Positions 22,290 through 50,498 of a stretch of DNA of 64,000 nt are shown here, piece after piece. Position 1 is the first letter of the stretch. Each line of letters starts with the position of its first letter. This DNA is from Pocillopora verrucosa (taxonomy: Eukaryota; Cnidaria; Anthozoa; Scleractinia; Pocilloporidae). The stretch is taken from the NCBI RefSeq assembly GCF_036669915.1, contig NC_089317.1:9647311-9711310 (forward strand), in the 5' to 3' direction. Made by a program: the position numbers and the translations under genes. The notes beneath the pieces are model-generated. The model was not told the origin of the DNA and ran no database searches. It saw nothing but the letters and a program-made list of their open reading frames with translations.

Positions 22290-22357
22290 TCTCCGCGTGG
22301 AATCGAACCTTAGAATTTCGTATTCTGAGCTCCGATGCTCTACCACTGATTCACAGA
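22290..22357 (-). repeat. tRNA-derived SINE or tRNA pseudogene
   Basis: The minus strand reads a B-box identical to consensus (ggttcgattcc, 22299-22309) and an A-box-like segment (agtggtagagc). The acceptor stem pairs only partly and the anticodon loop lacks the usual T at position 33. It looks like the head of a tRNA-derived SINE rather than a working tRNA. Confidence 0.5.
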
Positions 22358-22776: not shown

Positions 22777-23625
22777 CACAAATCTGTAGACTTTTCTCAT
22801 TTCCATTCGATGGTTCATGTCTTGTATCTGGTTATGAATAGAAGAATAAGATAATTAAAATTATTTTGTTACTTCTTTCCTAGCATTCTTCATCAACGTT
22901 TGGCCCGCGCTAAATCACTTTTGAAAAAAACACTCGCTTTATTTTTATTGGACAAAGCCCTAGATAGAAAAACACTTTTTTTGACAACAATCCTAACCTT
23001 CGCTGTTCCTTGGTAACTACTTCTTTGTTTTTTCGAAAATTATGTTGTTTCGCTTCGTTTTTTCCCTCGACGAATGTTTATTTCTTTTTGCGTTTAAAAA
23101 AAAATCAGAAATGTAAAGTGATAATGAGCCCGTACACCAAACCCTCTGAACCTACAACCAGGTTATAATCCTTTTAAAAACATTCACTTTTTTGCCGATT
23201 TCTTTTCAATATAAACATTCTCGTACTACACTTTTATAAATGCGGGCGAGGAGGGGGGGGGGGGGCCAAATACTAACAAAATGTTTGTCTTCAATACATA
23301 CCGCGGATCTGTAGACTTTTTTCATTTCCATTCGGGTGTTCAGCTACCACTTCTTTAACTTCTGGTTACAAATAGAAGAATTTGACGTTAGACTCGTCAA
23401 CGTTAATTTAGCTCTAGTTCTTGATCACTGTTGAAAAATCACTCGCTCTTTTTTTTCATCAGACAAAGTCCTGGTTAGTGTAAAGAGAAAGAGGAAAACT
23501 TCTGGACGACTTGCAAATAGAAACTTGATATACTTGGTAACTCAAGCTGAAAAAATGATAAAACTTGTAGTGCAAAGAAATTGCTACTTCACCATTAGAT
23601 GGATCTGAAGTACTTGGTCGATGGC
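22777..23625 (-). CDS. Gene 2 cytoplasmic mini-exons (tandem repeat)
   Basis: Two small exons, 23361-23302 (60 nt) and 22827-22777 (51 nt), each have good acceptors and donors, are phase 1-1, and share the block NGNEKSLQI. A third relative at 23625 down to about 23560 reads DPSNGEVAISL but has no clear donor. They look like tandem duplicates giving a repeat-built short tail. The function is unknown; no Tyr-based SH2 motif is conserved. Confidence 0.45.
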
Positions 23626-26600
23626 CTGAAAGCAAAGTTAAATGTGAAAATAATATTTCGTTCGTTTTTTTACCCTCCAAATATTTTACTGCCTTTTCTC
23701 TGAAAGAACACAGAGGAAGACCAAAATTTACCCTCTACGTATTTTTCGGTCAATGGGGGTATTGGAATAAAAGATATTGTCCATTTTTAGTTTGTTTATT
23801 CTCTCTTAACCCATTGAGGAATTCATTAACGGAGAAAATTGAACAGCTCTTGGACTCTGGGAATGGGAGCATCACTAAATTTGGATTCTATTTTGCTCTG
23901 CTGAATAAAAAGCGAGAAAGGAATCCAACTTTTCTATCATTTTTCAATTTTTTTTCCCATGAAAATTAAGTAAATAGATTAACTCTTCGGGCGTATCAGT
24001 AAGTTCGCATACTTACGTCGTTTCCTTCGTCTCCAACAAAACCAGAATGTAAAAATACAGATCAAGATAAAAACCAAAGATCCTGTTAAAGAACCGACTA
24101 TAATCCATTTGGACCCTAACGAAATAAATATTTGTTGATGATTTGTAAATTTTATTCAAAAAATTATGTTCATTTTTTTTGAAGCAGAAACCTCCACGAA
24201 CTCACTCCAACCGCCTAAAGGAGGGTATTTAACAATTGTTCGCCTCAGGCTCGGTAAATATTCAGGTGCTTACTAATTCCGTTGTAAATATTCATTTCGC
24301 TCTTGGAACCATTCTGTTTTCATTGTCTTGATTACTCTTATCGAGATAAAGAGCTAGTTTCCACTCGCATTTGATAAGTTCATTTAATTTGATTCGGAAT
24401 TGAATTTTGTATCTAGTTCATCACTTCCTAGGTAACACTGACAATACTCGAGACAGCTATTTTGAAATTTAGCGCTCCTGCTACAGTCACCTCGCGCTAG
24501 GTGATTAACGCGAGATATGACGCAGTCCTCGACCAATCAGTGCTCGTGCATCTTTCTTATCACCACAGAAATTATACTAAAGATGTATATTCCTTTTCGT
24601 TGGTTAAAGAGTGGAAAGCTGCATCTGCGATACCTTTTTGTAATCATTGATAAAACCAGTTATCAATAAACTACCTTAAGAGTAAAAAATAACCGCTTTT
24701 GACTTTAAGATGGAACCAGAGCTTAAGTGGCATGGATCTAGTAATAAAGTCTACATTGTATGCATTACCATGTAAGTAGTGCCCATTTTCATTTCTGAAA
24801 AAACGTAAGCTTTCATCGGTTCGTTTTGATCCCGCAGCTCATATGTGAGGCAGAAATACAAAATTTCAATAACTGTCTCAGAAATTTTGCTAAGTGATTA
24901 AACTTTAGCATTGCAAATTTTCAACCGAATTCAGAGTGAATAGTACCTGCCAGAAGTGGGCTCTTCTTGTTACAATTAGATTACACCACAACTAAAATTG
25001 AGGGGGGAAAGGTTTATTTGCATTAAATAATCTATTCCGCAACGATATAGCTTAAATGCCCACAGGCAGCCCGAGCTCACGTCTCAACACCAAGTCACAC
25101 TACGCGTGACGTTTTCGTGAATTAATCGTTTGCTTTTTCTCGAGACCTGAGATTGGACCGCCTGTGAAATGCCCTGCTTGTGGGGTCCAGACCCGGCCAC
25201 TTTAGATAATAATAGTCAAATACCTGAAGAGGATACCCTCGGCGATCTTGTCGTTTGATGAATGTAATCTTGAAGTGCCGCTATCGACGATGGGTCTATA
25301 ATCAATTTTCCAAGTTTTCTGTCTCGTGCGGCGTGTTTCAAGACAGAAATGATCCTGTCAATATCCACTGCTTGCTCGAATCTTAAATTGAAAATTACAA
25401 CCACGCTGCCACTTCTGTTAAAAGAAAAAAAATTAGACACAAGATAAGAAAAATAAATATACGTAAAATCTATAGTAAAATCTATATCTTAGGGATTTTG
25501 GAAAAAGCTAAGAGTCACCCACTCGAAACGTACGACTTCAGTGCTGTTGTAGCTGTTATCATTTCTAAAGAGATCTTCAACCTAAAAAAAAATGAAAATA
25601 ATTTGTCAACACGGATTTGTAATCTTTTTAGGATCTTAAGGATATGTCATTCTTTAGCATGCCAATAAACTAAAAACTTACCGCTACAATAACCTGCTTT
25701 GAGAGGTTCTGGTATCTTCTGCTTTCTTTGTTTCTGAGACTTATGTCAAATTTCTCGTTGGTGATTGTCATCTTTGCATTAACCAAATTACTGGCTCTTT
25801 CTAAAGAGGAAAAACAAAGCTCTCAGTCCTCTCAGCAAATCAAAATATAGAAAGAGCAAAAAACAACAAAAAAAACAAAAAAAAATTAAGGAGGAATTAA
25901 AGGCAGTAGTGTTGTTTTGGCAACCTTCTAAATACAAAAAAAAAATAGTCGCAACTTGTATATAAATAATTGAACCTTTTCCAGAGTCACATTAGAAAAA
26001 ACAAACGCAAAATTGTGAAATCTAGGATCCGGCAAAGAAATGGAATTTTAAAAATTAATGAAACCATTTTGGACAATGCTTAAAAAAAGACTTTTGAATA
26101 GAAATCTCTCAGTCAAAAGTTATCATAACCATTCTCTGTGCCTGAAGTACATGTTTAAGTAGAAATATTCTCATCAATATTTGCCTACTTAGAAAAAGTA
26201 AAAGTTGAGCTGTCAATTTTTTTAGACTAGAAAAGAAATAAGAGGAACTTTAGTAAGAAGCAACAGAATTGTTTTCGATGCTATATTTCTGTTTCAAGAC
26301 ACTCGGTAAAAAAAAAATTTAAAAAAATAAATAAAAAAAAAACACTTTAAACTGCGGCAAAATTAAATGTCATAAGAGAGCAGATCTACTTACCCGCAAC
26401 ATCAAGATATGTACGGGCAGTGGCTGGAGAGCCAATTCCATTTTTTGCCGTGCATTTATACCATCCTTGGTCGCCGAGTCTCGCGGAATCAAAATAAAGT
26501 TCACTTCTACGTCCGACATTTTTTTCGTGATTCCAAGATATAGTCGGTACTGGATTTCCAATCGTACGACAGTAGAGGGATACCTTTTTACCCACCTGAA

Positions 26601-29600
26601 CTGTCTGATTGCTAGATATATCTGTTATCTGGGCAGGATCTGTTGAGAAGCAGAAGTTCAAGATTTTCTTTTTCTATGTTGTGATAAGTACTTGCAAGGA
26701 ATTTGTTGACGTGAATTAGCCGGGCACCTTCAGTTACCGTGTTACTTACAGTTTACATCAATCATGCAGAATTCCGTGCTGTTGTTTCCAATTCCATTCC
26801 AAGCAAGGCACTCGTATATGCCAGAGTCACTGCGTTTGATGTCTTTTAAAAACAGTACTCCACTGTTTGAAAGTGTCCTTCTTGTATCCGCTCTGTTCCA
26901 TGCAACACTTGGCAATGGGTCGCCGGTAAAATTACATAGAAGTTTGACAGTATGACCTTCCGTAACTGCACCAGGGCATTGCTTTGATGTTTTACTTGGC
27001 TGAACTACAAGAAAAATAGAAAAACAAAATCAGAGGAGAAGCTCATCAGCTTTTCGGATTGGCCTTCTGAACAGCAGGGGAAATCATAAAGGAGCTGAGG
27101 AATACGGATGTAATTACAAGAAGAAACGTCTAACCACAGCGTTTTATTTGGGTACAAGATGAGAAAAAGGAGAACGAGAAAGAAGAAAAAAAAATACAGT
27201 TCGATTGTTAGTTCTCGTAATGTCATCATAACAAAAAGTCAAAGTCTCCAACTAAGAAAATGAAATAAAATTAACCACTTCTCCTCAATTTTATCTGCAT
27301 TTGTTGAACTAATTATCCTATAAATTGTCGGCTGTAGGGGTCTATATAACCCTTTCGTATCTTATGTTTATTACAAATCGGCACAAGCTAAAGACACTCT
27401 CCAAATCTAAGAGCACGTTACAGCTACTGAATATACTTCGAACAGAATACGAAATCAAAAGACACGATAGAGACATAAGAAAATTCTAGATGTCGTAACT
27501 ATGAATAAAAAATACTACTAAGGCACTTCTCCGCTGAAATTAATGTTTTTTGTCCATATTTTAGTCCACAGAATGTATAGCACAATAAGATTTGATACAG
27601 GTTTGTTTAAACTGATCTTTAGAGGATCTTGAAGCTCGAAACCCGACGCAATAACAAATATTAATAAGGAGATAAAATACCACTAAAATAATACTGCAAT
27701 AATAAAAATGACAATTATTATTATTATTATTATGATTATTATTGTTATTATCATTATTGTAGTAATCATTAATTCATAATTTGATCATAGGGTGTTGTCT
27801 ACCAGCTCATATAGCGAGTCACCTTCCATGATAAATAATTCACCCAAGTGATGCTAGGCTGAAGATTTTTTTTCGGCTTGAAGCAAAAGCTTCTCCTGTG
27901 CAGTGGCAAGGAGACAAAATAAGTATAGTCTACGTCATTTTGGTAGAAAAAGTAAAAAAAAAAATTGCCCAAGGTCATGTGATTCAAGTTTAGCCTCTTA
28001 GGCGGTCTGAAGTAACATTGAAGTCCGGTCATTTTTTACTTGAAAAAAATGTTAGAGATTGAAAGAAATTTTAGTCAGCTTTCCACAGCATTATCGTAAA
28101 GTGGGATAGACATTGATTATAATTAACCAACTCGACGCAATGTGCATCGTTGACTATTTATAATCTCAAATCCTACGCGCGCTCATGGAATAATGAAGTT
28201 AAACAAAAAAGGCACAACAAGTAAGAGAAATCGGATGCTGGTAGAACCTACTTACGAAAATTGAATGCTACTCGTAGTCGAGCTAAGTTGTTATGGTGGT
28301 TGCGATGCCTTGACATACTAGAAGGAAAGAATTTAAGTTATTTCACATTATATAATGCCTTTGCGGTTTTAATTAAGGGAGCGATTTCGTGATAAAGTAG
28401 CATAACCCCAAAAATTGCCCTGCAAATTACTTCCACTACATTTTTGGTTATGGAAATATCACTAGCTTTCAGGGATAGAATGTTCTTTCATAAAAAGTAA
28501 AATTAATCGGCTTTCCAGTGGAAAAGCCCAAGTTGAAAATTCCATTGTGGTCCTCGCCTATCTTCCAAAAATAAAGCGGTAAGTTTCTAAAGAAACTGTG
28601 TTGCTGCGTTGGTGGGAGAGTATAACAGGTAATTTAGTGTTAGCAACCGTAAGGGTTAAAAACTTCCGACGTTTCGGCGCAGACGCTGTTTGTCAGGCAC
28701 CGACCATCTAAACAAAGGTCCTCCGATGAAACGATTTATGGTTACTGGTTCAAATCGAACCAGAAAGACTTCTTCTGTCGGTAAGGACAAAGTCAATAAA
28801 TGAGAATTCTGTGAATTGAAAATTACGACCATTGTTGTTTTTATAATCATGATTCAACGCATTTTTCCATCTTAAGAGTTAGCGCCAACGCACTCTACGA
28901 TTGTTATTTGGGGATTGTCGATTCATTTATTTTCACTCATCAATGTAGTCGGCTTTTCTTGTCAGTAAAGGGCTATTGTGTTTATATAATAAACAAAGTA
29001 ATACATGGTTGCTTGTAGATATGGAATTTCTCTTCCCGTGTTTACTCGACAGCTCAAGAAAAAAATCCATATCCATGCGCGCCCATGTATTATTCTCTAA
29101 TTATCAAAACCGCGTCTTACAGTCGCTTGTTGACATTTTAGCGCGACGATCTTTGTTTTCTGAGATTTTTCTTCATGAAATCAATCAGTGAATGACCTCC
29201 TATGGCTCGTGTTTCACATCAAAATCGTAAAAAATGGACACGATTCACAACAGTGTTGGGTTTGCCTCTCTTACTACTAGTTTTTTTTCAACGATGCTAA
29301 GAATAAACTCTAAAAAGAGGTGAAATCAGAAAATCCCGCGATGTTTTCGGTTTCACTTCTTAAGACTGCTTCGAAAGCTGGCAAAAAGTCACGAAATCAC
29401 TTACTTTCAAGGTCTTAGTGCCGTTACTTGTTTTCTTGTCACTCCGTTACTCGTTACTGCGCTACTCTGTTTAGTGACATCCCCCTCATCAGAGGGGAGG
29501 CCCAAGTGAAGGCCACTCAGGCCTTTTGTTCGTTTGTTTGATCTTTTCAATTTTGCAGAGAGCAAACACTTTCGTGTTTTGATAATACAGTATTTAAAAA

Positions 29601-31245
29601 GGATTAAAATACTTTGTTGATTCCTTTCTTTTTATGTGTATCTCATTTTTTCTCTTTTTATTTGTTTCCATAGAATATATAAGATATTCGTTAACTCTTA
29701 GAAAGTTCTCAAATTTCATTTACGCACCAAACGATATCTGAACGTAAAAACCGCAAAGATTCTGAGAATTATCTTTCCGAGAAAGAAAGAGCTAGTGTAG
29801 CTATTTCTTGTAATTTACCGAAAGTAAACTCCATAAAAGTATCTCAGTGCACTTTTCTTTTTGTTTTCCTTTCACCTTTTTGCGAAATGATTCCACAGAT
29901 TTAAGTTGCTGAGAAAAAGGAGCAGGCGACCTTTCAAAACAATTCAAGGCCGGCGAAGATCCTGGTGGACATCAGTTTAAGCGTGACTCTTACGTCAACT
30001 GTAGACTGCACACATAAGCTCTGATTCTGTTCTCGCTATTCCTGTTATCCGTAGTTAGACTGTGTACAATCTAACTTTAAATATACACAAACAGCTATGA
30101 GCAGACAGCAAAAGGTTTTTTAATTCTTTTTTCCGTTTGCTCTTAATGTCATTTTTCGACTCGAAAAGGCAGTTCTCAACTATTGTTTACAATCGCATGA
30201 CATGCATCAAAGCTAAGTATTACATTGATTCGTTTGCACTTGATTAAGCACAATGCGGTTTACTTACATAGGACTCTGATCTTCACATCTTTGTCGATTT
30301 CAAGCAGATCCTGGTTGGCTATCTGAAGGCGATATGTGGCACTGTCTGATCGTTGCACAGCAACAAGTGTAACCAAAGCTTGATCATTCGAAATGTTAAA
30401 AATAAATCGATCGCGAAAGGCTGAATCCACATCGACAGAGCTGTTAGACGATGACTTTAGAGCTATTAGCTTCTCTGATCGGCCATCACCGATTCGGAAA
30501 AACTTGGCAAATGTCAGTGAACCATCAATCTTGTAGCTCCATTGTAGATTAAGATTCTCATTTTCGATGACTGAGGTTGGATTTGTAGGAGAGGAAATCC
30601 ATTCAGACAGTAGCTCTAAGGAAATTCAAACGATGCAAGTTAGGCTAAATCAAAGTAGAGTCAATCTTAGTATTAAGAAATTCCTAAAGAATGAAATGCA
30701 TTATAAGTTTCATTGCAGGACAAATGTACGCTTCCGCACTATAGCAGATAAAAGTGAAATCAGCGAGCTGACGCCGCATTACGCCACGTGGCAAACAATA
30801 TTGTTGGGCATTTTGCCGAGCATATCTCGCCTAACAACTGACTAGCGTCAGGGACAAATAGTGGAATGAAAGTAAGAATTATTATACATGTGCAATCAAA
30901 CTAAGTGAGGTCAAATTAAGGCCGAGTAAAAGGAGAGAGCATAATTTTGAAACATTCATTGAAGATCGATGATGTCGAAGAAGCCTGTTTAATAATTAAT
31001 TTAACGTTGAATCTCAATTAAGTAGCTTTGAAGTCTTGTCATTTCCCCGGAGTATATTTCACAGGCATTTAGGCCTTGCTCGAAAAAACAGAAACTGTAC
31101 ACTTCGTCAAAGTAAGGAAGTAGCTAAGAACCTTAACAGAAACAATCTCCACCAACTTGCCTGCTTTTTCCAAAGTTGTTAGTATCCACAAAAGTAGTGT
31201 ACATAACGATGGTTTTGCTCTCAAACTCCCAAGGAAGCATCCCAT
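22777..31245 (-). CDS. Gene 2: kinase-less Ig/SEA membrane receptor related to RTK3
   Basis: Exons read on the minus strand: 31245-31161 signal peptide; 30615-30268 Ig1; 27004-26750 Ig2; 26639-26394 Ig3; 25800-25682, 25581-25523 and 25414-25224 SEA; 24115-24017 TM; then a tail of probable mini-exons (about 23625-23560, 23361-23302, 22827-22777). All joins up to the TM exon keep frame. The layout, exon sizes (348 and 119 nt) and residues match RTK3, so they are paralogues. No kinase follows before RTK1 ends on the other strand. It may act as a decoy or co-receptor, which is inference. The end of the coding sequence is not fixed: an alternative exon at 23897 stops after about 7 codons. Confidence 0.7.
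24017..24115 (-). CDS. Gene 2 transmembrane exon
   Basis: The 33-codon exon encodes KWIIVGSLTG, then a hydrophobic run LVFILICIFTFWFCW, then RRRKRR. It is a single type I membrane span with a basic stop-transfer end. Phase is 1-1 as in RTK1 and RTK3. Confidence 0.8.
25224..25800 (-). CDS. Gene 2 SEA domain
   Basis: Three exons (119, 59 and 191 nt, phases 1-0-2-1) encode a SEA-type module: MTITNEKFD and RRYQNL in the first, VEDLFRND and TEVVRF in the second, GSVVVIFNLRF in the third. The FxxGSVxVxF pattern is the centre of SEA domains, where many self-cleave; no clear GSVVV Ser cleavage context beyond this was verified. The second exon uses the donor ga|gtgggt. Confidence 0.75.
26394..30615 (-). 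CDS. Gene 2 Ig block (three Ig domains)
   Basis: Exon 30615-30268 (116 aa) encodes an Ig-like fold without the Cys pair: LQWSYK in the B/C region and ATYRLQI near the end, as in RTK3 Ig1. Exon 27004-26750 (85 aa) has LLCNF, VAWNR and SGIYECLAWN. Exon 26639-26394 (82 aa) has LYCRT, ISWNH and QGWYKCTAKN. The intron between Ig1 and Ig2 (27005-30267) holds an ATT-rich microsatellite and one arm of a dispersed inverted repeat. Confidence 0.8.
27714..27768. repeat. ATT-rich microsatellite
   Basis: Imperfect ATT units in the gene 2 intron. Confidence 0.7.
28795..29110 (-). repeat. Dispersed inverted repeat, arm 1
   Basis: About 315 bp that recur in the opposite orientation at 34180-34500 (shared aaaattacgaccattgttg, aatacatggttgcttgtaga). 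Each copy contains its own small dyad around aataatacatgg and ccatgtattatt. Lies in the gene 2 intron between Ig1 and Ig2. Confidence 0.6.
31161..31245 (-). CDS. Gene 2 exon 1: signal peptide with a GC donor
   Basis: ATG at 31245-31243 starts a basic n-region, then the hydrophobic core SLCTLLLWILTTL and EKA. The exon ends in phase 1 with CAG|GCAAGT, the usual form of a GC-AG donor, and fits the phase-1 acceptor at 30615. A longer frame begins at 31275 (MLIQGQ...). Assignment rests on phase, composition and position. Confidence 0.5.
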
Positions 31246-31700: not shown

Positions 31701-31749
31701 ATGGATGGAATTCAGTTCATGGCCATGTTGCTTTTTCCAGCTCTGGCAG
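31701..31749 (+). CDS. RTK3 exon 1: signal peptide
   Basis: ATG at 31701 opens 16 codons ([16 protein letters not shown]) ending in phase 1 at gtaagc. Joined to 35066 it gives a short classic signal peptide with a likely cleavage after ALA or GALP. The 3.3 kb intron that follows holds a 1.2 kb TIR element and one arm of the dispersed inverted repeat. Confidence 0.6.
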
Positions 31750-34700
31750 GTAAGCAAAGCAGACAAAGAAGCTTACTAACATAGATGTCGAGTGACGGTT
31801 TCCTATATTCAGATCATTTTCGTTCCTACTGCTTAAATTCTTAATTACATTCTATTTACCATGAAATTTAAAAGATCTTTTCATTTAAAACAAACGTAAA
31901 ATCGTAATTAATTTAAATAATTTATCGCTTGGTGAACTGCTTAGAGTAACCGGAAACTTCACAGTGCAACTGGTCTATCGATCGAGAAGGCATTTCCAAA
32001 TTATCTGGATTGACACAAGTAGAAAACTAAGCCGGAAACGCCATGATCAAACATAAACAAAAGCTAGGAATCTAAAGTTTTTATTTTAGCTTTATTTAGC
32101 TAAATCAAAATCTCATTTAAAACTTCTAGCGAATCACTCTTTAACATTGAAGATCAAAATTTAATATTTTGCGAATATTGAGGAAACTACATACCAAATA
32201 ATATGTTGTCAGTAAATTTAATTTCCACTTATTTCGTTCGAACCAAAAATGTAAAAAAGAAAAATGCCTTTATTGTAGAATGAGCAGTTTCAGTTGTTGA
32301 CCATTTACTTAGAATGAATCTTTTTGCTACCTTCGGCTGATTGAAAATGTTGTTGGGTCGCAATGATGGGAGAAACTAGCTGTAGAGCGCACCGCATTTA
32401 TCGAATGGTACCAATGACTCTCGACCTGTCCCTTTTAGCCTTCTTTAATCTCTATTCTCTAATACAAAACCGATTACAGTGCATTCATTTCAATCTTCTA
32501 TTTAACTACTCTGACTTTGACCGAATGATCGACCTTGATTCACTCTTAGTTTTTTTCGGGAAACTATAATCTACCTACCTCAGCCCCGATCGATTACCCT
32601 CTTGTAAGTGTCAAATATATAGAACTCGCTAATATACTCACTATCAGTAAGCAAAGTCATTTGGGCATGCTGCCTATTGAATGAGTTGCCAGTAATCGGA
32701 TCCTTGTGCTTGCGCAAAGATTTCTGAGATCGCCACGGGGCAAACATTGCAATTCACTAAAAAGAAATTTATGGCGCAAGGTTGTTTCGACGTCCAAAAT
32801 AACAATTTTGGTGAAGATCATCGCTTTTTGTCGCTATTTTATCAGAAATAGCTGTAGGCAATATTGATATAGGGGTGGTGAAAAACCGTGAAATATGTAG
32901 TAAAATCTAGCGATGAACTTGAACATGCACAAGGGTTTTGCGAAACTGACATCGCACAATGATCTCGATCTTTGGAAATACTGGTGATAAATCGCCAAGA
33001 AATAAATGAAGCCTTGTCAGTTTTATTTACTTGTGTTAAGTCTAACTCTAGCTTTTTTCTTGGTTTGGTATACCAAAAAAACAAAACAAAAAAAACGCCA
33101 CAACAGCTACCTCGAAGCAGCAGGAGATCGAAATTGTGTGCTTGAGCATGAAATGTTATCGTGATATATTGAGTTGTTAAACACCTACACTGCCTCTTTG
33201 TTATGATCAATGAGAGCAAACTAGCGTTGATAATCGGCTTAAAACTGAACCTTTTCTTATGCGACGATGAATAGGTACAAATGGGTCGCTTGAGGAGCGA
33301 TGCACAACTGAATATATATACGTCCACAATTTCTACCGGAGTTCCCGTGATCTTGCTTTTCCTGACAAGATCCTTCGAGGAGTTCGCGGAGTAAAGTGGC
33401 AGCTCAAAAACTTCGGGATTTTTCTCGGAAAATTGTCACTTGACCTAGGGATTTCATTTTGTTGTTTATCGGTTCTCTCCTTTGAGGAGGTATATTTCAG
33501 ACATCGCAATATGTTTATTTAATACGTTAACAAGTATAACAACAGGCTGTACATACAAAAATAAACTGAAAAGTCTTAAGTGGGTCATATCCGTGCGATC
33601 ACTTAAGGCTAATTTTATAATATGTCGTAACCATTACGCGATGACGATTTCAAAATTATATTATAGACTTTACGAAAGGAGAGAAGTTAATCGGTATTTT
33701 ATAACATATTTAGTGTCAGTGCTAACAAAATCCATTTATAATAAAACTGCGGCGAAAAAGCGTTAATCTCTCTCCAAAATCGTTTTTTTGAACGTCGAAA
33801 CAACCTTTCGCCTTACATTTCTTTCCAGCAACTTGCAATATTTGCCCCGTGGCGATCCCAGAAATTTTGGCACACAAGGATCCGATTACTGGCAGCTCAT
33901 TCATTGACCTTGGGAGATTATAAGTTTGATGTAACATTTTTCCCAACGCTTTTACAAGAAACTGACAAATGAACAGTAACGTACTTGACACTTCCGATCA
34001 AACAATCAATCTTTCACTGGCAAAGCCAAAACAAGAACTTCAGTGTAGGTCTAGGCAAGTACAGTAGGTAAACTCAGCACTTTCACTTATGGAAGTTAGA
34101 CAAGCAGTCACGATTAAGAATCTCATCGCCTTATCTTAAACCCAAATAAATACCGTCTTCGAATTCAAATAGTAAATAAATAGAGAATAATACATGGGCG
34201 CGCGTAGATATGGAATTTCTCTTCGAGTTGAACACGAGAAGATAAATTCCACATCTACAAGCAACCATGTATTATTTTGTTTATCATATAAACGCAATAG
34301 CCCTTTTACGGGAAGACAAGCCGACTTCATCAATGAATGAAAATAAATGAGTCGACAATCCTTGAATAACAATCGTAGAGTGCGTTAGCGCTGACTCTTA
34401 AGATGGAATAGGGCGTTGAATCTTATTACAAAATCAACAATGGTCGTAATTTTCAATTTACAAAATTCTCATTTATTGACTTTGTCCTTACCGAAAGAAG
34501 AATTCTTTCAGGTAAACGGTCAAAATCGGCCAGAGGCAAATCTTCCAGTTGTCGATTTTCATTCTCAGCCGTCAGAAATGCTAACGCCAAAGCCACTGAA
34601 TACGCAACTTTCGGTTTGTCTTTTACTATATTGGTTTTCTACCCCTTCTAGGAAAGTTTAAATATCATTGTCCGTCAGCGATACGGATTTTTTTTAGTGT

Positions 34701-37700
34701 CTTAGATGAATGTTGAAACGAATGCAAGGAGAAAGCCTGCAGAAGTACATACAAACGAATGGTTTTGGTTTTTTTGTCTACCAAAACATCGTGTAGCAAT
34801 CTTTAATGATTAGCCGTCTAATGTAATGAGTATGTAATCAAACATGGCAAAACTTCCCGAAAATGTTTCAAAAATTATCGTGACTTCTTTTAACACTGAG
34901 CGAAAATATGAAGACTCAAAGAAAATATAATGCACCTACAAGACTTGACTCCACTGAAGCAACTCGAACAATTCTCTGTACCATAAACTTGCGGCTTGCT
35001 TTGATGAGACTCCTCAAACATTTTGTATGAAATGATAAACTTTTACATTTTTTCCTTTTAAAAAGGAGCCTTACCAACTTGGACCGTTCAACCCGTGAAC
35101 TTCACTTCTGTTGTTCAGGGAAAGAACATAACCCTCGCGTGGGAGTATAATGTTGATGGAAAGTTTGCACAAGCTCAATTTTCCGATTTGAAGAAAGCTG
35201 GGAAAGAGAAAACGGTTGCTGTTAAGTCTTCAGCGAATGGAAACGTAGTCGTTGCCTCTGATTACCAGGAAAGATTCATTGTGCGTATATCAGCCTCACA
35301 AACACTAGTTACAATTCTCAGAGCACAGAAAGCTGACATTGGAAAGTACAAGCTGCAGGTGATAAACCGGAAATTGGAAACAATAAACAGCGTGGTGGAG
35401 GTTTCAGTTCATTGTAAGTACTATTGATGCACAGACACGGGAAAGACTAATAAAAAGATGGACAGACACACACACATCTTGAAAGACATGCAAACACACC
35501 GCCCAACAGTTAAACAGACAACTTGTTGGAGTTGAGGTACTTGTTGGGCCCCAGACCTCCGATGATCTACTTCTGAGCTACAGAAAACTTGGCCATCACT
35601 AAGTTCGTTGGTGACACGTGACCAGCAAAGTGCTACGATCAGCATTGTCAAAAACGCTGTGCGAGTGAAGGGATTAAGAATAGAGATGAATTTTTAGATT
35701 ATGATGTTTGGTCAAAATCAACTAGAATAGGCTTCCGCGGTGTCTGCAAACGATTTTAACCTAATAAATACACTATTCTTTATCACTGATTCGTTTGGAA
35801 TTCCAAAAGGAAAGAGAGGCTTGAAAATCTACCATTTGTTTTCATTCTCAGATCGACCAACCAACACTGTTCTCTCAGTATTTCCAGACAGCAGCGAAGT
35901 GTTTGGAGGAAGTGTCTTATATGAGAAATGCAGCACAGATGCCAGACCTGATCCTCACATTTTTCTCTTATACTTCAATAGAAATTTTATCAGTAACAGT
36001 AGCTCAGGGGAGTTTAATGTCACAGTTTACAGCGATGGAGTATACACATGTGCTCCCATTAACACAGTTGGTTCGGGAGACAATGCATCGTTTAGCGTCA
36101 CTATTTTTGGTAAGAATCCATCAGCGTTGTTGATAGGCTTTCTTAATGAAATCTACATAATGCACCAATTACAGCTTTACTCCACATTGCAGTATGTCTG
36201 GTAAGTGATAGAGCAAATGTGACTTGAAAGTGTGGTTCATGTTAAAATGTGGCACGAATCCAGTGTGCCTCTAGCATTCGTATCTTATTTGGGCGTCTCC
36301 TGTCTTCTCTTGAGCAACAAGCAGTCTATGCTACCTTGTGCTTTCAAATCGTCGGTAAAAGCCATTTAAAATTTGTCTCAATTAGCCTGTAAAACACTTT
36401 GTGATAAATTTCCATTTTCACCAAAACCAGGCAAGGCTACGATAGGTTTGGAACCCAGAAACGTCACAGCATTGGTAGGTGAGGCCACATCGCTGAAGTG
36501 CCTTGCTCATGGGAATCCTCCGCCAACTATTACGTGGGCTCGTCATGGCATTGGAAATGGTTCAGAGCTCTTTTTTTCCTTCAGCGAAGTTCTCTGACAG
36601 TGGGTGGTACAGATGTGTAGCTACAAATGCTTATGGAGTCTCTTTTAGTCCACTTGCATACCTCGATGTAACCGGTAAGGTACTTGACCCTTCTTGCGGC
36701 AGAATTAAAATCGTTAGATTTTAAGCGGTTTTAAGCAATTTGATCGGCTCTTTTTACTCCTTAGACAGTGCCAGTACCTTCATAAATGGAAGAATGACAA
36801 TATTAAATGAAAATTTTGATAATGGCTTGGAAAATCCTTCAAGCGCAAGATATCAAACCCTTAAGAGGCAGTTTGTTGAGGCGGTAAGTGTTTGAATCAT
36901 CGATTTTATTGTTAACCCTTTCACTCCCAAGATTGTATTTAGAATTCTCCTAACTACCTGCCATACAATAATTATGATGTTAGTTCTAAGAATTTGGTAT
37001 TGGATCAATCAATAAAACCCTAACTTATATTTTTCTATATTCTCGTCACTCATCTGCTTGATATTGTAGTGATATTGTGAGGAGAAATTCTGTCTTGGTC
37101 ACAGATGGGAGTTGAAGGGTTAAACAACGGGCTGCGGTGTCAGGTTTTGAGTCCTCTCATAATGGCATCATTACAATGATTATTAGTGCGAACACAATCT
37201 CAATTGAATAACATCCCAAAGGCTTTTTTTTCTTCCAGTCTCTTTTGAGGGATTACTTTGAACCGAGTGAGGGAAACTTAGATAAAAGATGAGACGAGGA
37301 GGGCTTTTTTTTAAGTAGTGGTAGATGAAAGGGAGTAACATGATTATTTTGCTTAATGGGAAGTTACTTATTTAGCGGGAAGCTTCTGGAAAAAAAATGC
37401 TTCACATTAGACTCTACAGGAAATTACAACTATGCCACAAATCAATTTCGTGGCCTGAGGTTATCCTAAGTTAGCGGAGACAAAACTTCTAGCGCCAACG
37501 ATGTTTCATCTTCAAGGAAAAACTCTGCCGAACTCAACGATAAGTCGCGTTTCCAAAAGCATAGCCAAAACTTCGCGAGATGTTGCTGTTGAACTCAGAC
37601 ACGTACTGTTGCTTTGTAGTATTGCAATAGTGGTGTTTGAGTTCTTTCATGAAAAGTTTTAATAACAGTTCATATTCATAATTTAGGTAAGGGATGTTTT

Positions 37701-40700
37701 CAAGAGTGACAGTACCTTCCATAGCACGGATGTCACAAGATTTGAGTAAGAGGCAATTGAACGAATTTAAATAGCCAAACCACCCATTACCACCTCATGT
37801 GATGGCATTCATATATTCATCCATCCATTAATTCCTCCCTTAATCTATCCATCCCTTACGCCCTTCAACTATCCACTCATTTACCCACCCATTAATCCTT
37901 CCCTCCCACCCTCCGTCTGTCCTTGCCTAGTTCCCACCTTTCATTCATTCATTCATTGATTCAACTATCCATAAATCCATTCATCCATCCTTCCTGTCTT
38001 ACATCCATTAATCCATCCATCAGATCTTTCCCTTCCTTAATCTATCACTACTTGCCTCTTTTCATCCATCCATCCACCAATCCATTTCGACATCGATCCA
38101 GTCTTGTCAGTCAGACTCAAGTTTGATCATATTCTAATTCCGTTGGATGACGTTTTCATCTGCAGAAAAGGAAGTGTGATCATTCTTTTCGCGCTAACTT
38201 TCAAAGAAGTAGTTCGAACAGACAGAAAAATCACTATTTTAAAAAATGCTGCCAGTGACGGAAGAATTGGTGTCTTAGATGTTGATCCAGTCTCCGTCAT
38301 GGCTATCCGTGAAACTAAAGAACCTGCCACCAGTAATTTAGGATGCAGGCCGTCAAGCTCACCAGAGAGCTCAGGTATTTTTTTCTGCCCGTTTTTAGAG
38401 TACTGTGGGACGAGGAAAAGTTTATAATCTCACTGAAAGGTTGAAATGAAACTAAGATCAGTGCTATAGAACTTTTCCGAAGTATTTTAAAGGTGGTACG
38501 TTCTTAGGTAGGCGAAGCTTGTTGAAAACGTCTCTAAAAGCATATAGGGTAAATGAATTTTAAAAAAATAATAATAAAATAACAAGGTTCTCTGCTGAAA
38601 CTTACGTACTTTCCTTCAGCGTAATCTCTGACATCAATGAGAGATAATCCTGCGACAAATAGATGGTTACTTAGCTCGTGTGATAAACTAGTTTAAAAAG
38701 GCCTTGCTTCCTGAGGTAGCTGGTAAAGGCTAACAGAGCGGTTTTAGCGTAGTAAGTGTGAAAGATTTCTATTAGAGACGTTTATACTCCTATGGCAGAT
38801 AAACGAGCCTGGTAAGCTTTAAAAAATAATCAGCGATTTTCTGATTTGCTCCGCAGCTTGCTCAAGTGACAATAAAATATTTGGAGCAGTGATAGGAGTT
38901 CTTGTTTTCGTAATCATTGGCCTGCTTATTTTTATATTCTTCCTGCAAAGAAGATCAGGTAACTGTAACATAAATTGTAGCTGAACAGATAACAAACTAA
39001 ACTGGGAAGATTCCATGACAGTGAACTTGAAAACAGTGTGGAGTCCCATTGTTTTTCTAACGATGTCATGTGAACAGCGACACCTACTCTGTATACTGCT
39101 TGTCTTCTTTAGGCGATGAGGCCGAGAGGTAAAGGGTCATCCCATAATAAGCATATTCCACTGCCGTTTTTACTTGGTTTCACGTGACGTTAGTCATGTC
39201 TTAGTCGAACTTGTCTCATTCACACACGCCCTTTACTTGAAGGCGGCAACGAAGTTGTCCAGAGGCCGAACTATAATACGAAACCAAGATCGCCCACTCA
39301 TTATCTGAATGTCTGTTGAAAACTAACCAATCATCTCGGAGCTTCATGTTTCCTATGAGGTGACTCATATCCATCCAAAATGTTCGCCTGATGAAGAATA
39401 ACAGTACACCTCGAAATTAAGCATCGCAATCCATATCAGATCGCACTTCAGTGTAGCATAAACGATTACACTTTCCAGTATAACCAAATCTAAAGAAGCC
39501 GCATTTAGGACTTTAAATTGTTTCTACATTGCCTTTCCTTCGTTTTTGTTAAAAGATACTGCAACCTAGCGGTGTTTGCCCCATAATTCCCAGAATGGTT
39601 AAACTTCTGTTATAGTTAAAGGATGGACACCACTTTTTAACCAAAGCTGCGTCCAATTTAAAGTTGGAGTCTTAGTTTTCACTTAAATTCAGGTTTAATG
39701 TTCATATGGTATTTTGGTTGAATTTTCGATATTCTTCACAGCCGCAGAATTTCTATCAGCTGAACAAACAAAAAAGAAAAGTTCAATATAGATTTATTAT
39801 TTGTTGTTATAGTAAGTTTCGTTTCTTCATTTAGGAATTGAATCCAAGCAAAAGTAAGTAAAAACTTTCCCGCAATTATTGTTTCTAAGCTGCCGATGAT
39901 CTTTCGTATTTTTTTAACAATGTTTGGTTCACCTTTGTCACCATGTAAGACTTCAATATAAGCCTTTTCAGATAAATTATGAGCCTTCCACACTACATTT
40001 CTCCTTAATACGATGCACAAAAATATAACGCAACTGATTTACTTGGAGTAAGTATTAAATGTTTATTACAAAACATTTGGTAAAAGAAAAACAATATTTA
40101 TCAAAAAAGCTAGTCTTATTCGACAGAAATCGATGTATCAGGAAGGTGTACCTTTGTCTCTACTTTCTTTCAAGGAGATGTGAAATGGTCAGAGAGGAGA
40201 CTCAGCCCAGACCTCTTAGCGTAAGTTGAATATCACGGCTGTATTTAACTTCGGATCAAATTTAAAGAATCTCTGTCTTTCATATTTCCTGCTTACAAGT
40301 TGCCTTCTATCAGCGGTCGTCGCTGTGGATATTACTGACCAGAGCATAGTTGAAGAGACTACTATCGGCAGAAAATTTTTCTTGAAAATTTGTTGAGGAG
40401 GGATTGTGACAAATTGAAATTCTGTGTAGAAACGATGTCTTGGTTATAACTGCTTAGTGAACTCCTGCAACAATTAAAGACTTTGTATATCAACATTTTT
40501 CAATTTTCCATAGAAACACTTCCATTTTTCTCGCACAGTTAAGCCTAATTTTCCTAAAACGTGCCTAAAACCCGACATGAAGGTGTCAATTATAATACTG
40601 CATAAGCCCTGTTTTTACATTTTAGATTCTTTGCAACAGCTTTAAAGGCCCTTCTTATGAAAAACTTTGAAAACGCACAATTACCCAGGGTGGATTCAAC

Positions 40701-43700
40701 TACCTAACATCGTGTTATCAACCTCTTTAATAATGTTGTTCTTCTTTTCCTTTGAAGTATGAAATTTCCATGTCCAGACTTGAACAAGTTGAAATGCAGA
40801 CAAACCGCTTAACCGTAGAAGGATCTTTGGCAGAAACATCGGAAACAGAGGTTGATACAGAACTGATAGATACTGGAATCGCTGGATACGAGTCGGCCTT
40901 GCCGGTCACCAACTCCTCTTGGAAAGTTCCACAAGAAAATGTGTCTGTAAGAGAAACAATAGGCAAGGGAGCCTTTTCTCAGGTGGCCAGGGGAACAGTT
41001 AAAAATCTCCAAGGGGCTTCTGAAGTGACAGTGGTTGCAGTTAAAATGCTGAAAGGTAGAAACTATCACTGTTTGAATCTATGGACATTTCTCTAGATGG
41101 CTTAGACGCATCCACCGCCTTTCTACACCACCTTTACATGCGTTCCTTTCGGGAATGTCATTCAAGCCTATCATGTAAACTTCAAGTCGATGGCTTTTGT
41201 TTAGTCGCCATGTAGGGCCTAAGATTTGTTTTCCATAGAGCCAGAATACTTTCTTCAATTTTTATTCGAAAGACTTGTTTCCTCTAAAGCCAGGAGACTT
41301 TCTTCAACTCCTACCGTGGAAACAGACCTCAAGAGCAGAAGATAAACGGAAAAGAACAAACAAGCGAGTGTTGAAAGAATGTGACAACTTCTAACCACAA
41401 AGCAAATGTCTGACAAATAAATTTTTAGCCTCATTTTCTATAAAATAGAAAAAAAGGAACCAGCGTATTTAATGGTAGGTTAAGAATGATTGATCTTAAG
41501 TTTTAAGACAATATTTGACTAGCATCAACAGTTTAGTATACGCTCGACTGCAAAAGCGTTGACATTTAAAGAGGGTTTACAATAAACAATGAGACCTCAC
41601 GGCTTTATGGGCCAAATGTAAATAATAGCCACCACTAGATACCCGTGGCGAATGATAACAGCTATCCAGGCTTTCGTAGATGAAAATAATTATCATGGGA
41701 AAAAGAGATTTCGCATGAAAAAGGGGGAAAAGAGAATCACTTATTATGTATCTGTGCGAAAATTTCCCATAAAGCCATAAAGTTGGGTCTCATTACATTT
41801 AGGGGGGAAATATTTTTACAATCGAGTATAATTTTTATCCGGCTTACTCCCACATTTTTTCTACTTTTGAATAACAGAAAACGCTCCTACCTCTGATAGG
41901 AAGGATCTGCTGTCAGAGCTTGACCTAATGAAGCAACTCAAACCTCATCCATACGTTATCAAACTACTAGGATTTGTTGCTGGTAACGTATAAAAAAATT
42001 GAAAAAAAATTGAAATAAATAAAGTAAAAAGAAAAAAGTCTCATAGTGCAAGACAGACGAAAAATTCACAAAGGGTTAAATTTTAAAACGCATTTTTTCC
42101 ATTGACAGAACCGTTATTGGTGTTGACTGAGTATGTTCCATTTGGAGACCTGCTCGGTTATTTACGAAAAAGCCGAGGACTAAACGACAGTTACTACAGC
42201 AACCCGAAGTTCACAGCAGAAACCAGTTTGACGGCGGATAAACTGATGAAGTTTGCTTGGCAGATTGCCGATGGAATGAGCTACTTGTCCACTAAATGTG
42301 TAAGTTAGTTCACAGGCTGTCGTCAGTTCACTCTGCTATCTAATACTCCTTTGGTAGAACCGCGCCAAGTCATTACTTCGGATTTGACCCCATTTTTCCA
42401 GTCCTGCATTTGACGGCAATTGAAGCACTTGCAAATGTAAGATTTGACATCAAAATCAGTCACCCTCTTTTCCCGGTAAATAAAAAAGCTGTCTCAAACC
42501 AGTTGTTGCATTGGCTGTTTCATGATTTATCATAAGGATGTACAGAAAATGTGTAAGCATTGTAATTATGCATGCTATCTCAAATCAAGCATTTGGCTTT
42601 TCTATATCTTTCGGAGCAGATAATTCATCGAGACCTGGCAGCACGCAACGTGTTGGTTGGAGAAAATGAGACCTGTAAAGTGACGGACTTTGGAATGGCC
42701 AGAGATGTGCAGCAAGACAGCATATACGAAATGAAAACTACGGTACAATAAATTATCATGTGATTCGTTTATTGTACAACATAAAGTCGGCTTAAATCCA
42801 GGATAACCTAACTTACACGGAAACACTATCACGTTTTATAACATAGCTAGCAGAGCCGCGCAATCAAATTCAGTATACGTAAGCGTGCTCAAAATCCCGA
42901 TAGTGCACGCTGATAGCGTGAGCAAATCGCTTCGCCAGAAATTTTTTTTTTCTCGCACGAGCGGCCATTGTTAGCGCGGGGAAAAATAATATATTTCGTG
43001 ACAATAATGGATACAAACAGAGACTCGGCCCACCAGTCCCAAAACGAAGACAATTTTCCGACCTTTTCCCTTGGGCTAGAGTTCTTAAATGAGGCAAAAA
43101 AAGAGGAAAAACAACGGAAAAGGAGACTCGGCATCAGCACCGTCACGATTCGCTTCACTGTCCGAGGGTGAAATGCAACACATTTTGACAGAAAGACACT
43201 CTGGTAAAACCAAACAAATGACAAACAATGGTCTGTTTCAACCGTCAAAGGTAATCTTAAATTTTTCCGTTTTAAGTAACATAAAAGTCGAGCTTTCAAC
43301 TGAAAATTTGAAATAAAACCAATTCCTAGTTTGCTTAATATTTCGCTTACCTCGAACAATCACTTCTGATATTGCTATCCGTTTTTCGCGTCGGATTTGA
43401 TGCACAATTCCACCGGCTATGTTATAAAGCAATTGGTTCATGCTTTTAGCTGTGCTCTCTTACTCCCAAAGAGATGATTTCCATCTTTCTTTTCTTCTTT
43501 TTTTATATACTGGTCAACAGTACAAATATGCATGCATTGCATTTAACAATTGGTTCATGCTTTAGCGTGCACTATCGAATTATGGAGCACGTGGGAAGTT
43601 TGGAGAGCATTCATGAAGCTAGAGTTGCCCTCGGTTATTGCCACGGGCAACTCTTACCCTTCTTTCGTGCTCTCCAAACTTCCCACGTGCTCCATAACTC

Positions 43701-46700
43701 GACAGTGCACGCTAAAGCATGAAAAAATTGTTAAATGCAATGCACGTATATTTGTACTGTTGACCAGTATATAAAAAAAGAAGAAAAGAAGATGGAAAGT
43801 AAGAGAGCCCCTACCGTTATGTTGCTAGTGAAAACCAAGTGCCATGTGCTCATTGTTTTCCATATTATGATGACTGAGAATTTACGGGTTTAGATAAACT
43901 CGAGCACCAGAATATTTATGATATATTGTTTATATCGACAAGCTAGTTTTTAACTGACATCAATTTGTTACAGGTTATAGATAAATGACAAAGTACCTAG
44001 TTTTAAAAATCAAGATGAAGAAGTTAGAAGAAAGCCCCTGTTATGCTAAATTTTATCAATAGATGCTGACTTGTGAACATTGAAAAGAGTCATTCAACAA
44101 AATAAAAACAGCTTGTAAATAACAGAATGTAGAGGGTGGTTTTCCCGTAGCTTGTGGCTAGTGAAGTACGTAAAATTCACCTGAAACTCCTCAGCTGCTG
44201 CTTTTTAGAGAGCAGTTGACTCAAATTGCAAAAAGAGATACATGTTTATTATAACAATTTCATTAAACTTCAGGGGCGACTTCCTATCAAGTGGACTGCA
44301 TACGAGTCGCTTTTCTATGGGACGTACACCACCAAGAGTGACGTGTAAGTATTGACTGATCAAAGTGCCAGTAACCCCACGCCTTAATAAATCAGTTTTA
44401 CCGAAACAGCGTAAACGTGTAACGCTAAATTGGAATTTTACAGCGTTGGTAGTCATTACTTGAACTCGAGTACTTAGAAATTTTTATTCTGATTTCAATC
44501 ATAACATATGCGGTAAGAGAAGCGCAAAAATAACTTCTAACAAGATGGATACTTCTCTGTTACACAGCGCACAAAAAGGAGAAAACGATCATCATTTCAG
44601 TAACTAGAATTATCTTTTCCACACACACAAAAAAAACAAAACAAAACAAAACAAAAACTGGTACCACCAAGCTACAAGAATTATATCTGTCCCTTAAATG
44701 ATTAGGGCTCTGTTCATCTATAGAAGTAACCATGATAAGTGAAACTAAATGTTTACATTTTACAGGTGGAGTTACGGGATTGTCCTCTATGAAATCTTTA
44801 CACTGGGTAAGATTTTTTAATGTGATTTCCTGTACCCTGGAAGTATTGTAAATAACACTTTATAGCCATCGAGAAAAGCCATCTTATCCCATCCGTACTA
44901 ATTGCAATACAATTAATACTAGATAAAAAGGTATTGATAGTAGCCAAGGTTTTGATATCTCACGTTATAATCTACCAAATAACTTTTCTCACGCGCGATT
45001 TGTTTAACGCATAACGTATTCGAATATGCCCCGAAAATGAAAAAGCGTTCAGCTATTGTTACTGAAGAAGGGAAATGTTTGTTTGTTCATTAAGCCGAAC
45101 CAGACAAACACTGAAAGGTAAATATCCCACGCAACAGACAATAAGCTGTTCGTAACATTTTTATTGCGCGTTTCGTAAACATTTTGAAAATGATAAACAT
45201 AATAGCCTCCAATTGGCGCGAAAATATACTAGTACATTTGTCCTTCGATATTGTCTGGTCGTCATCATCATCATCATCATCATTTATTAGCCATTTGAGA
45301 TACAATATTTATACCGGTTTAACAGTATGGTAGGGCGAAGTGACCTCCAAGAAACCACCAGGCTTTTAGGGTAGGCCGCCTCGGTTGTCAATATATTTGT
45401 AATTAAGATGTGGATGTAGATGTGAGGCTTGGCCAATTCGGACTCATTTCATTAAAAAATTAATCATCTTTAAAAGTGAAAAGCCAGTCAAACCGGTAAT
45501 CGATATTGAGAGAGAATTCCATATTTTAGGACCTTGGTAGAGTACTATAAATTGTTTAAGATTATTACGAAAGTCATGTGGTCGATAGCAATTGGCTATG
45601 TATCATAATTGCGTACTTGCTTATTTGCAGAGAACCAGCTGAGAAACATCGGGGCAATGGTTGGTTATGATAAAACATAAATTCAGCTATTTGCAATGCG
45701 TTGACTTGGGAAATATCTAAGATGCCACGTTTAGGAAATATGAGGCAGTGTGTTCTCGATAGTCTTCGAACATTACAGTTTTCCTTGAGCTCCACCCTCG
45801 GGAAACTGCATATATAACTGCAGATATTTGCATATCTGAACGGATGATGTCCGTGGACAAAAATCCGCGCACATTTTCGCGTCAAATGGGGGCTATCGTT
45901 TACATTTGCTGTAATTTAGATTGCTTATCACTTTTAGGTGGATCGCCATATCCTGGTATGGAAGGAAAAACGGTTCCAGGTTGGCTCAAACTTGGATATA
46001 GGATGCCAAAGCCAGTACACATCGACGACAAATTGTATGAATTTCTTCAAATATTATTAGATTTTAGAACAGTTTATGTTCACCTCAACATAGCCTTGAT
46101 ACCCTCGTGGTGTCCTTTCTTTCGAAACTTCCTGGCGCTGATTAAAACGAGTACAATAGTGTATTTTGTTTCAACCCACGCTAACTTGTTTTCGATTATG
46201 TCAACATCTCCCTTTTCATGATGAGAACTAAGTACCGCTATAATCATACGATAGAAAACAAACCTCTTGTTTGTCTCAGATATCAAGTGATGTTAGAATG
46301 CTGGCAAATAGAAGCGAACGAAAGACCGACATTTTCTAACCTTACAAAGAAACTTAAAGTAATGGAAAACCAACACAAGGTATAAACTTCTACTCCAACA
46401 GTATTTTAGCTACAAAAACACTAGGTTAAAGCTATTTCAATTATGTTTACAAGTTTTGAAATCTGGTTGATTCCTAAAAATGCTCATTAAGCCACCAAAA
46501 ATGTTCCGTGTTTGTTACGAGCATTTGGCAATCAGACGACAGTTCATGTATGTACTACGTCCGATGCCATAACGTTGCTGTGGCGTCAACTAACTAGGAT
46601 AAATGGACATTTTTTATCGAATTACAACATAATGTGGAGGGTAAAGTAAAATTACAGTAAGGGTTTAACGTTGAATCTTTCCCTTGTTATTTTTTTTATT

Positions 46701-46808
46701 TTTTCATTTTTTTTTTCATCATTTGCATTTTTTATTTTTCAGAAGCTAATCCAGATGGCGAAGTATGACAACACACTTTATGTGAATGTCGACGATTTAG
46801 TTGTCTAG
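31701..46808 (+). CDS. RTK3: Ig/SEA receptor tyrosine kinase with intact catalytic motifs
   Basis: Exons: 31701-31749, 35066-35413, 35852-36109, 36431-36674, 36765-36883, (a 59-nt SEA exon not found), 38166-38374, 38857-38958, 39113-39128, 40175-40220, 40758-41055, 41878-41982, 42109-42299, 42620-42742, 44274-44344, 44766-44806, 45938-46034, 46280-46379, 46743-46808. With the missing exon and one base fewer in exon 4 the frame would close at about 846 aa. The kinase keeps [21 protein letters not shown] and SDVWSYG, so it should phosphorylate tyrosines when ligand dimerises it. Lesions: a one-base shift in the T7 run at 36571-36577, and the missing exon. It is either a real gene with assembly errors or a gene decaying in its ectodomain. 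Confidence 0.75.
32681..33900 (+). mobile_element. 1.2 kb TIR element, copy B
   Basis: The left end (gagttgccagtaatcggatc...) and right end (33780-33900, reverse complement) match over about 120-145 bp. No coding frame inside. It lies in RTK3 intron 1. Confidence 0.65.
34180..34500 (+). repeat. Dispersed inverted repeat, arm 2
   Basis: Inverted copy of 28795-29110, in RTK3 intron 1. The internal dyad is better preserved here (about 40-bp arms around 34190-34290). Confidence 0.6.
35066..36674 (+). CDS. RTK3 Ig block, third Ig exon frameshifted
   Basis: Exon 35066-35413 (348 nt) is a Cys-less Ig-like domain (LAWEYN, KYKLQV), the counterpart of gene 2 Ig1. Exon 35852-36109 has YEKCST and GVYTCAPIN. 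Exon 36431-36674 is 244 nt, one more than a multiple of three. The frame reads LKCLAHG, ITWARHG and GSELFF, then shifts at a T7 run and continues in another frame as [12 protein letters not shown]. As written the upstream frame stops at TGA (36595-36597). Confidence 0.75.
36765..38374 (+). CDS. RTK3 SEA domain (first and last exons; middle exon not found)
   Basis: Exon 36765-36883 (119 nt) has [11 protein letters not shown] and RYQTLKRQF. Exon 38166-38374 has [12 protein letters not shown] and a Ser/Pro-rich end. Both match the first and third SEA exons of gene 2 in size class and phase. The 59-nt middle exon expected between them was not recognised. The intron holds a MITE (36914-37122) and a degenerate CATC repeat. 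Confidence 0.65.
36914..37122 (+). mobile_element. MITE copy, CACTCCC family
   Basis: Begins taaccctttcactcccaaga and ends gggagttgaagggttaa. It lies in the RTK3 SEA intron, where the 59-nt exon is missing. Confidence 0.65.
37800..38095 (+). repeat. Degenerate CATC/CATT tetranucleotide repeat
   Basis: Many catccatc, cattcatt and tcca units over about 300 bp in the RTK3 SEA intron. Confidence 0.6.
38857..38958 (+). CDS. RTK3 transmembrane exon
   Basis: The 34-codon exon encodes [10 protein letters not shown], then a hydrophobic span from [14 protein letters not shown] to IFIFFL, then QRRS. It is a single type I membrane anchor. Micro-exon 39113-39128 and exon 40175-40220 continue the juxtamembrane region and restore phase 0. 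Confidence 0.8.
40758..46808 (+). CDS. RTK3 tyrosine kinase domain and tail
   Basis: Motifs in order: GKGAFSQV (the third P-loop Gly is Ser), [23 protein letters not shown] (hinge), HRDLAARN at 42626, DFGMARD at 42686, [43 protein letters not shown]. The C-tail carries YDN and YVN, two YxN motifs that suit the GRB2 SH2 domain, then ends DDLVV. Exon borders copy RTK1 exactly in the C-lobe. Confidence 0.85.
43454..43809. repeat. Fold-back element with about 150-bp arms
   Basis: The sequence from gctctcttact to the loop near 43630 is repeated in reverse to agtaagagagc at 43809, with few differences (one 12-bp insert in the left arm). Near the loop agagttgccc pairs with gggcaactct. It lies in the RTK3 intron after the DFG exon. 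In RNA it would form a long hairpin. Confidence 0.75.
45257..45283 (-). repeat. ATC microsatellite
   Basis: About eight cat/atc units in the RTK3 intron before the exon at 45938. Confidence 0.75.
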
Positions 46809-50470: not shown

Positions 50471-50498
50471 CGAGTCATATTTACAAAGTAATTCTGAA

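Follow-up and report, generated by a model that had tools for sequence, protein, structure and literature searches.

Among receptors that are related to kinase receptors but lack the kinase, a close parallel is FGFRL1/nou-darake, which has three immunoglobulin (Ig) domains, one transmembrane (TM) segment and no kinase, is a paralog of a kinase receptor, and is known in Nematostella (PMC2754479). In the FGFRL1 gene described there, a box exon separates Ig1 from Ig2, TM segment and tail share a single exon, and linked FGF-pathway genes lie within 10 Mb. For paralogs in divergent orientation the parallel is COL4A1/COL4A2, which lie head-to-head and whose products co-assemble (PMC12141075). SEA domains with a G-S motif in the loop between strands beta2 and beta3, and self-cleavage there, are described for MUC1, ADGRF1/GPR110 and ADGRF5/GPR116 (PMC6954182). 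Here we describe a locus of the coral Pocillopora verrucosa, in a window of 64,000 nucleotides (nt) (NC_089317.1, positions 9,647,311 to 9,711,310), in which two genes, gene 2 and RTK3, combine features of all these systems: the kinase-less state of gene 2 is FGFRL1-like and the head-to-head layout of the pair is COL4-like.

As read from their exons, gene 2 and RTK3 are paralogous type-I receptors lying head-to-head, with start codons (31245 and 31701) 455 base pairs (bp) apart. Both follow one plan, consisting of a signal exon, an Ig1 exon of 348 nt, two further Ig exons, a three-exon SEA domain and a TM exon, and only RTK3 continues into a kinase. The signal peptides were called by eye; the splice sites are GT-AG throughout, save at gene 2 intron 1, where a GC donor stands in a strong context (AG|GCAAGT) and the protein P0001 runs over the join. 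The main features and the exons of gene 2 are as follows.

20675..31245, minus strand: gene 2, kinase-less receptor of 13 coding exons and 559 amino acids (aa), comprising signal peptide, three Ig domains, SEA, TM and a 93-aa tail; placed by exon joins
31701..46808, plus strand: RTK3, kinase receptor of 19 coding exons and 847 aa; placed by a 100% match to P0007
31246..31700, no strand: candidate bidirectional promoter, the 455-bp interval, from composition and motifs only
31245-31161, minus strand: gene 2 exon 1, signal peptide, GC donor; N-terminus the same in P0001
30615-30268, minus strand: gene 2 Ig1 exon, 348 nt, no Cys
27004-26750, minus strand: gene 2 Ig2 exon
26639-26394, minus strand: gene 2 Ig3 exon
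25800-25682 (119 nt), 25581-25523 (59) and 25414-25224 (191), minus strand: gene 2 SEA exons, Pfam PF01390, with a SEA-fold structure match
24115-24017, minus strand: gene 2 TM exon, long helix 439-467 in the model
23625-23593, 23361-23302, 22827-22777, 21798-21772 and 20781-20675 (stop), minus strand: gene 2 tail exons, matching the tail of P0001

The anatomy of the two genes is solid, and we hold it with high confidence. A sequence-only reading of this DNA had proposed the common ectodomain plan, the Cys-less 348-nt Ig1, the SEA domain with its 119-nt first exon, the spacing of about 455 bp and the places of the first exons of both genes, and all of these were borne out by the exon-by-exon comparison, the Pfam SEA matches, the shuffled alignments and the presence of the predicted signal exon in P0001. 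Its end for gene 2, at 22777, did not hold, as two extra coding exons (21798-21772 and 20781-20675) carry the gene to 20675.

That gene 2 has no kinase rests first on P0001 itself (559 aa, 18 members, on a 2385-nt contig), which begins with the gene 2 signal peptide, ends in the short tail and contains no kinase. The sequence-only reading would have been contradicted by a cDNA of gene 2 running on into a kinase, and P0001 is the opposite. Its source is labelled "lgn", which we take to mean the Logan assemblies; since gene 2 spans 10.6 kb, a contig of 2385 nt would have to derive from spliced RNA. Second, a profile of four related kinases was run against all six-frame segments of at least 18 aa, and the 17 segments below E 1e-4 were all on the plus strand, in RTK3 and in the neighbouring gene 1, with no convincing match on the strand of gene 2 (E = 25 for the top one among the 226 minus-strand segments from 19.5 to 31.3 kb). 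Third, two relatives with a complete tail, P0002 and P0003, likewise lack a kinase, P0002 having the same tail and stop and P0003 a similar tail end; P0004 (430 aa), which stops before the TM segment, and P0005 (305 aa), which stops after Ig3, are silent on the kinase. Gene 2 thus looks real and transcribed, and is almost certainly a genuine kinase-less gene, as had been claimed from the sequence.

The idea that its tail is a kinase remnant was rejected: peptides from the last exons of P0001 and P0003, aligned with the juxtamembrane region and kinase start of four kinase receptors, did not outscore 500 shuffles in any of the eight comparisons (p 0.33-0.96). Part of the tail's end is found again in Stylophora P0003. 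No ITIM or ITAM (immunoreceptor tyrosine-based inhibitory or activation motif) was found in the 93-aa tail of P0001, which holds a single Tyr. Two of the tail exons (23361-23302 and 22827-22777, minus strand) are mutual duplicates, 79% identical over a 63-nt repeat. The window's gene 2 and P0001 are identical over residues 1-534, and their six differences all fall in the last exon (20781-20675, 35 codons); Pocillopora damicornis P0002 sides with P0001 at every one of the six. Gene conversion confined to this exon, or an allele that has diverged, may lie behind them.

RTK3 of the window is identical to the NCBI P. verrucosa protein P0007 (100% identity over 100%, 847 residues), and its exons, all on the plus strand, are these.

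31701-31749, plus strand: RTK3 signal exon
35066-35413, plus strand: Ig1 exon of 348 nt lacking Cys, modelled with nine strands
35852-36109, plus strand: Ig2 exon
36431-36674, plus strand: Ig3 exon of 244 nt, its frame broken at a T-run near 36571
36765-36883 (119 nt), 37687-37745 (59) and 38166-38374 (209), plus strand: SEA exons, Pfam PF01390
38857-38958, plus strand: TM exon, long helix 434-463 in the model
40758..46808 (stop), plus strand: juxtamembrane end, tyrosine kinase and C-terminal YVNV tail

NCBI marks this protein LOW QUALITY, and the frame break in Ig3 is either an assembly error or a broken allele; Ig3 is intact in the Stylophora RTK3 relatives P0008 and P0009. The kinase keeps HRD and DFG, and the terminal YVNV is presumably a Grb2-type motif. 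Among the best 60 of 2541 PDB matches by score, the kinase has its highest score with a chain named EGFR (9p9u, 321 bits in two stretches), followed by ten RET sequences (271-277 bits) and then by FGFR1 (249.7 bits and below). The NCBI name of the protein is FGFR2. Stylophora P0009 (528 aa) ends in the juxtamembrane region and is either a truncated model or a second kinase-less form.

How alike the twins are differs strongly from domain to domain. In pairwise alignments scored against 300 shuffles, Ig1 (38% identity, z 19.6), Ig3 (43%, z 16.8) and the three SEA pieces (41-48%, z 8.2-14.5; 46% over SEA in the multiple alignment) are clearly related. The TM segment (36%, z 4.8) and Ig2 (21%, z 4.7; 16% in the multiple alignment) match weakly, and the signal peptides show no similarity above shuffles (z 0.6). 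Between RTK3 and its Stylophora relatives, however, Ig2 is the best conserved domain, at 85-88%. Ig1 is Cys-less in every one of the eight rows of the family alignment (P0001-P0005 and P0007-P0009), as is the first Ig of P0010, a protein from Montipora.

Over Ig1, Ig2, Ig3 and SEA, gene 2 is 66-79% identical per domain to Stylophora P0003, its full-length kinase-less counterpart, and RTK3 is 74-85% identical to Stylophora P0008. In a SEA tree of nine rows, the gene-2-type P0001-P0004 form one group with 100/100 support, the RTK3 group being unresolved in the same tree. Because the twins are each nearer to their own Stylophora counterparts, and because P0001-P0004 group together, these sequences indicate that the gene 2/RTK3 duplication is older than the separation of Pocillopora and Stylophora. 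In Stylophora, both gene-2-type (P0003, P0005) and RTK3-type (P0008, P0009) proteins are each recorded with a contig of 1,462,766 nt, and all four probably share one scaffold. A wider search for gene 2 relatives, of limited reach and from which absence outside the Pocilloporidae is not to be read, returned 14 rows: P0001; the Pocilloporidae proteins P0002-P0005; short pieces with 58-94% matches to the gene 2 locus (P0042, P0044, P0046); P0045, which matches gene 2 Ig2 at 54%; and Ig proteins at 25-30% identity (P0006, P0040, P0041, P0043, P0047).

The SEA domain is recognized by Pfam (PF01390, cut-off 26.4 bits) in both gene 2 (49.0 bits) and RTK3 (49.5 bits), and the gene 2 SEA model matches SEA folds in a structure search. 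Gene 2 carries the motif GSVVV (G373-S374; Gly-Ser at 25410-25405, minus strand) between predicted strands 362-371 and 374-388, and RTK3 carries GSVII (G361-S362; Gly-Ser at 38170-38175, plus strand) between predicted strands 350-359 and 363-376. The models of both twins thus put the self-cleavage motif where a self-cleaving SEA domain has it, in the turn between beta2 and beta3, which is the likeness to MUC1, ADGRF1 and ADGRF5; unlike in those proteins, the SEA domain here belongs to Ig receptors, of which RTK3 has a tyrosine kinase, and its cleavage is predicted. The three-Ig fold scores highest against the IgLON, DIP and nectin adhesion proteins among the matches listed, at 17-24% identity. 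These matches are mostly Ig chains, other Ig proteins score nearly as high, and families outside the list are not thereby excluded.

Set against the described systems, gene 2 resembles FGFRL1 in having three Ig domains and a TM segment without a kinase, but its exon plan is another: SEA is spread over three exons, the box exon is absent, and the TM segment has an exon separate from the five of the tail. Neither a SEA domain, in the table rows, nor a head-to-head twin appears in the accessible portion of the FGFRL1 account (PMC2754479). Because the exon plan differs and a SEA domain is present, gene 2 is, judged by its sequence, not an FGFRL1. The layout agrees with COL4A1/COL4A2 in its divergent, homologous paralogs with nearby starts (455 bp between ATGs), but those genes encode structural collagens, for which a bidirectional promoter is named in titles cited by the source (PMC12141075). 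The three-Ig adhesion proteins IgLON, DIP/Dpr and nectin have no SEA or kinase; the Ig1 described here lacks the Cys pair. Also related are the Montipora receptors P0010 and P0011, which have Ig domains, SEA, TM and a related kinase, at 42-44% identity to RTK3; P0010, like RTK3, opens with a Cys-less Ig, and both have more Ig domains. In the literature within reach, from which most subscription journals fell outside, we found, among the papers listed, nothing on this pair, on SEA-bearing coral kinase receptors or on the two gene names, and a search directed at Ig proteins of allorecognition gave no paper.

A shared promoter of the two genes is plausible from the distance between them, and the two may be co-expressed. 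A promoter signature in the interval was sought and rejected. GC content is 0.42 and the observed/expected CpG ratio 1.15, against 0.78 for the whole window, but 500-bp windows between 29 and 34 kb range from 0.82 to 1.48, so the interval lies within the range of its neighbours; neither strand of the 455 bp holds a TATA or CCAAT match, and there is one GC-box match.

Gene 1 (plus strand), ending near 20016, lies tail-to-tail with gene 2 and has seven exons matching Ig above the Pfam cut-off, one FN3 match above and one just below it, and its own kinase exons. In its kinase (17838-17978, plus strand) G-L-G stands in place of DFG, although HRD and the lysine of VAVK are retained, and gene 1 is likely a pseudokinase receptor. 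Two insertions lie in the introns of the pair.

32711..33874, no strand: transposon-like insertion with 104-nt inverted ends (84%), RTK3 intron 1
28759..29104, no strand: repeat resembling a miniature inverted-repeat transposable element, gene 2 intron 2; arms 84-92% complementary

A relative of the first lies in a gene 1 kinase intron, at about 15330-16580. The classification of the second is our own reading of its sequence; its inverted copy (34176-34513) lies in RTK3 intron 1. We rejected this pair as proof of an inverted duplication: the introns are not equivalent, and a mobile element is therefore more likely. A further inverted repeat (43487-43790; 132-nt arms, 92% complementary, 40-nt gap) occupies an RTK3 kinase intron. 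Beyond the pair are abutting open reading frames with THAP and DDE_Tnp_4 domains, which are transposon genes (50328-51998, plus strand), one matching the YqaJ and Viral_alk_exo nuclease profiles (52645-53817, minus strand), and one with RING/TRAF-type zinc finger matches, all under Pfam cut-offs (48862-49332, minus strand).

What does the kinase-less twin do? The sequence-only reading suggested a co-expressed receptor with a decoy or co-receptor; the head-to-head kinase receptor and kinase-less paralog stand, and the decoy part is weakened by the 16-21% identity of Ig2. We tentatively prefer, with a probability of roughly 0.4, that gene 2 is a partner or modulator of RTK3-type receptors. On this view a coral receptor gene was duplicated long ago into two divergently oriented copies, of which RTK3 kept the kinase and gene 2 carries, after the TM segment, a 93-aa tail of its own. 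Both proteins may be receptors of the adhesion type whose three Ig domains stand on a SEA stalk; the stalk would cleave itself while folding, its halves staying together non-covalently. The membrane-distal, V-like Ig1 may make homophilic or heterophilic contacts, in cis or in trans, as in nectins, IgLONs and DIP/Dpr, and the kinase-null twin could then titrate, block or present contacts to RTK3-type receptors. Close transcription starts would help such a partnership, and pulling the SEA stalk apart could release either ectodomain.

Alternatively, gene 2 may be an independent adhesion or recognition receptor in an array, its head-to-head position being no more than what an inversion or an inverted duplication left behind, with neither regulation nor function in common with RTK3. 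This is a real possibility, if short of an even chance. In coral genomes, families of receptors and adhesion proteins are amplified, for the most part through tandem duplication (PMC10236652); with gene 1, a further kinase receptor with Ig and FN3 domains, lying upstream, the locus is an array; Ig2 and tails differ between the twins; and the interval has no promoter signature. On the other hand, the kinase-less form was kept in two genera (P0001-P0003), and in Stylophora proteins of both types (P0003, P0005; P0008, P0009) are recorded with a contig of 1,462,766 nt, which is probably one scaffold.

It is unlikely that gene 2 is a ligand-trapping decoy for a soluble ligand of RTK3, membrane-bound or shed through SEA cleavage, following the logic of FGFRL1, itself proposed as a decoy (PMC2754479). 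The absent kinase, the same domain plan and the strict GSVVV motif would suit such a role, but an Ig2 so divergent between the twins, and so conserved between RTK3 and its Stylophora relatives, weakens a simple same-ligand decoy, and a tail end partly conserved with P0003 would be needless for a pure one. Finally, that gene 2 is a truncated pseudogene or annotation artefact with its kinase elsewhere is very improbable: the RTK3 frame break shows that damaged copies or assembly errors occur here, but gene 2 has an open 559-aa frame, the same ends in P0001, the same tail and stop in P0002, a similar tail end in P0003 and no convincing kinase match on its strand.

The boldest form of the partner idea, which we hold to be doubtful, is a dedicated two-gene unit in which an active kinase and its kinase-null twin, driven from one bidirectional promoter, would meet through their Cys-less, V-like Ig1 domains, with self-cleaved SEA stalks that let go in response to force or contact and so set kinase activity. 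Were it true, this coral locus would hold kinase-active, kinase-dead (gene 1, as predicted) and kinase-less receptors side by side. Self-cleavage of SEA, described for mucins and adhesion G protein-coupled receptors, would, if borne out here, extend to a receptor with a tyrosine kinase. It is hard to give a role to proteins such as FGFRL1, which are related to kinase receptors but have no kinase, and the 455-bp spacing lets co-expression, binding and SEA cleavage be studied in one small locus.

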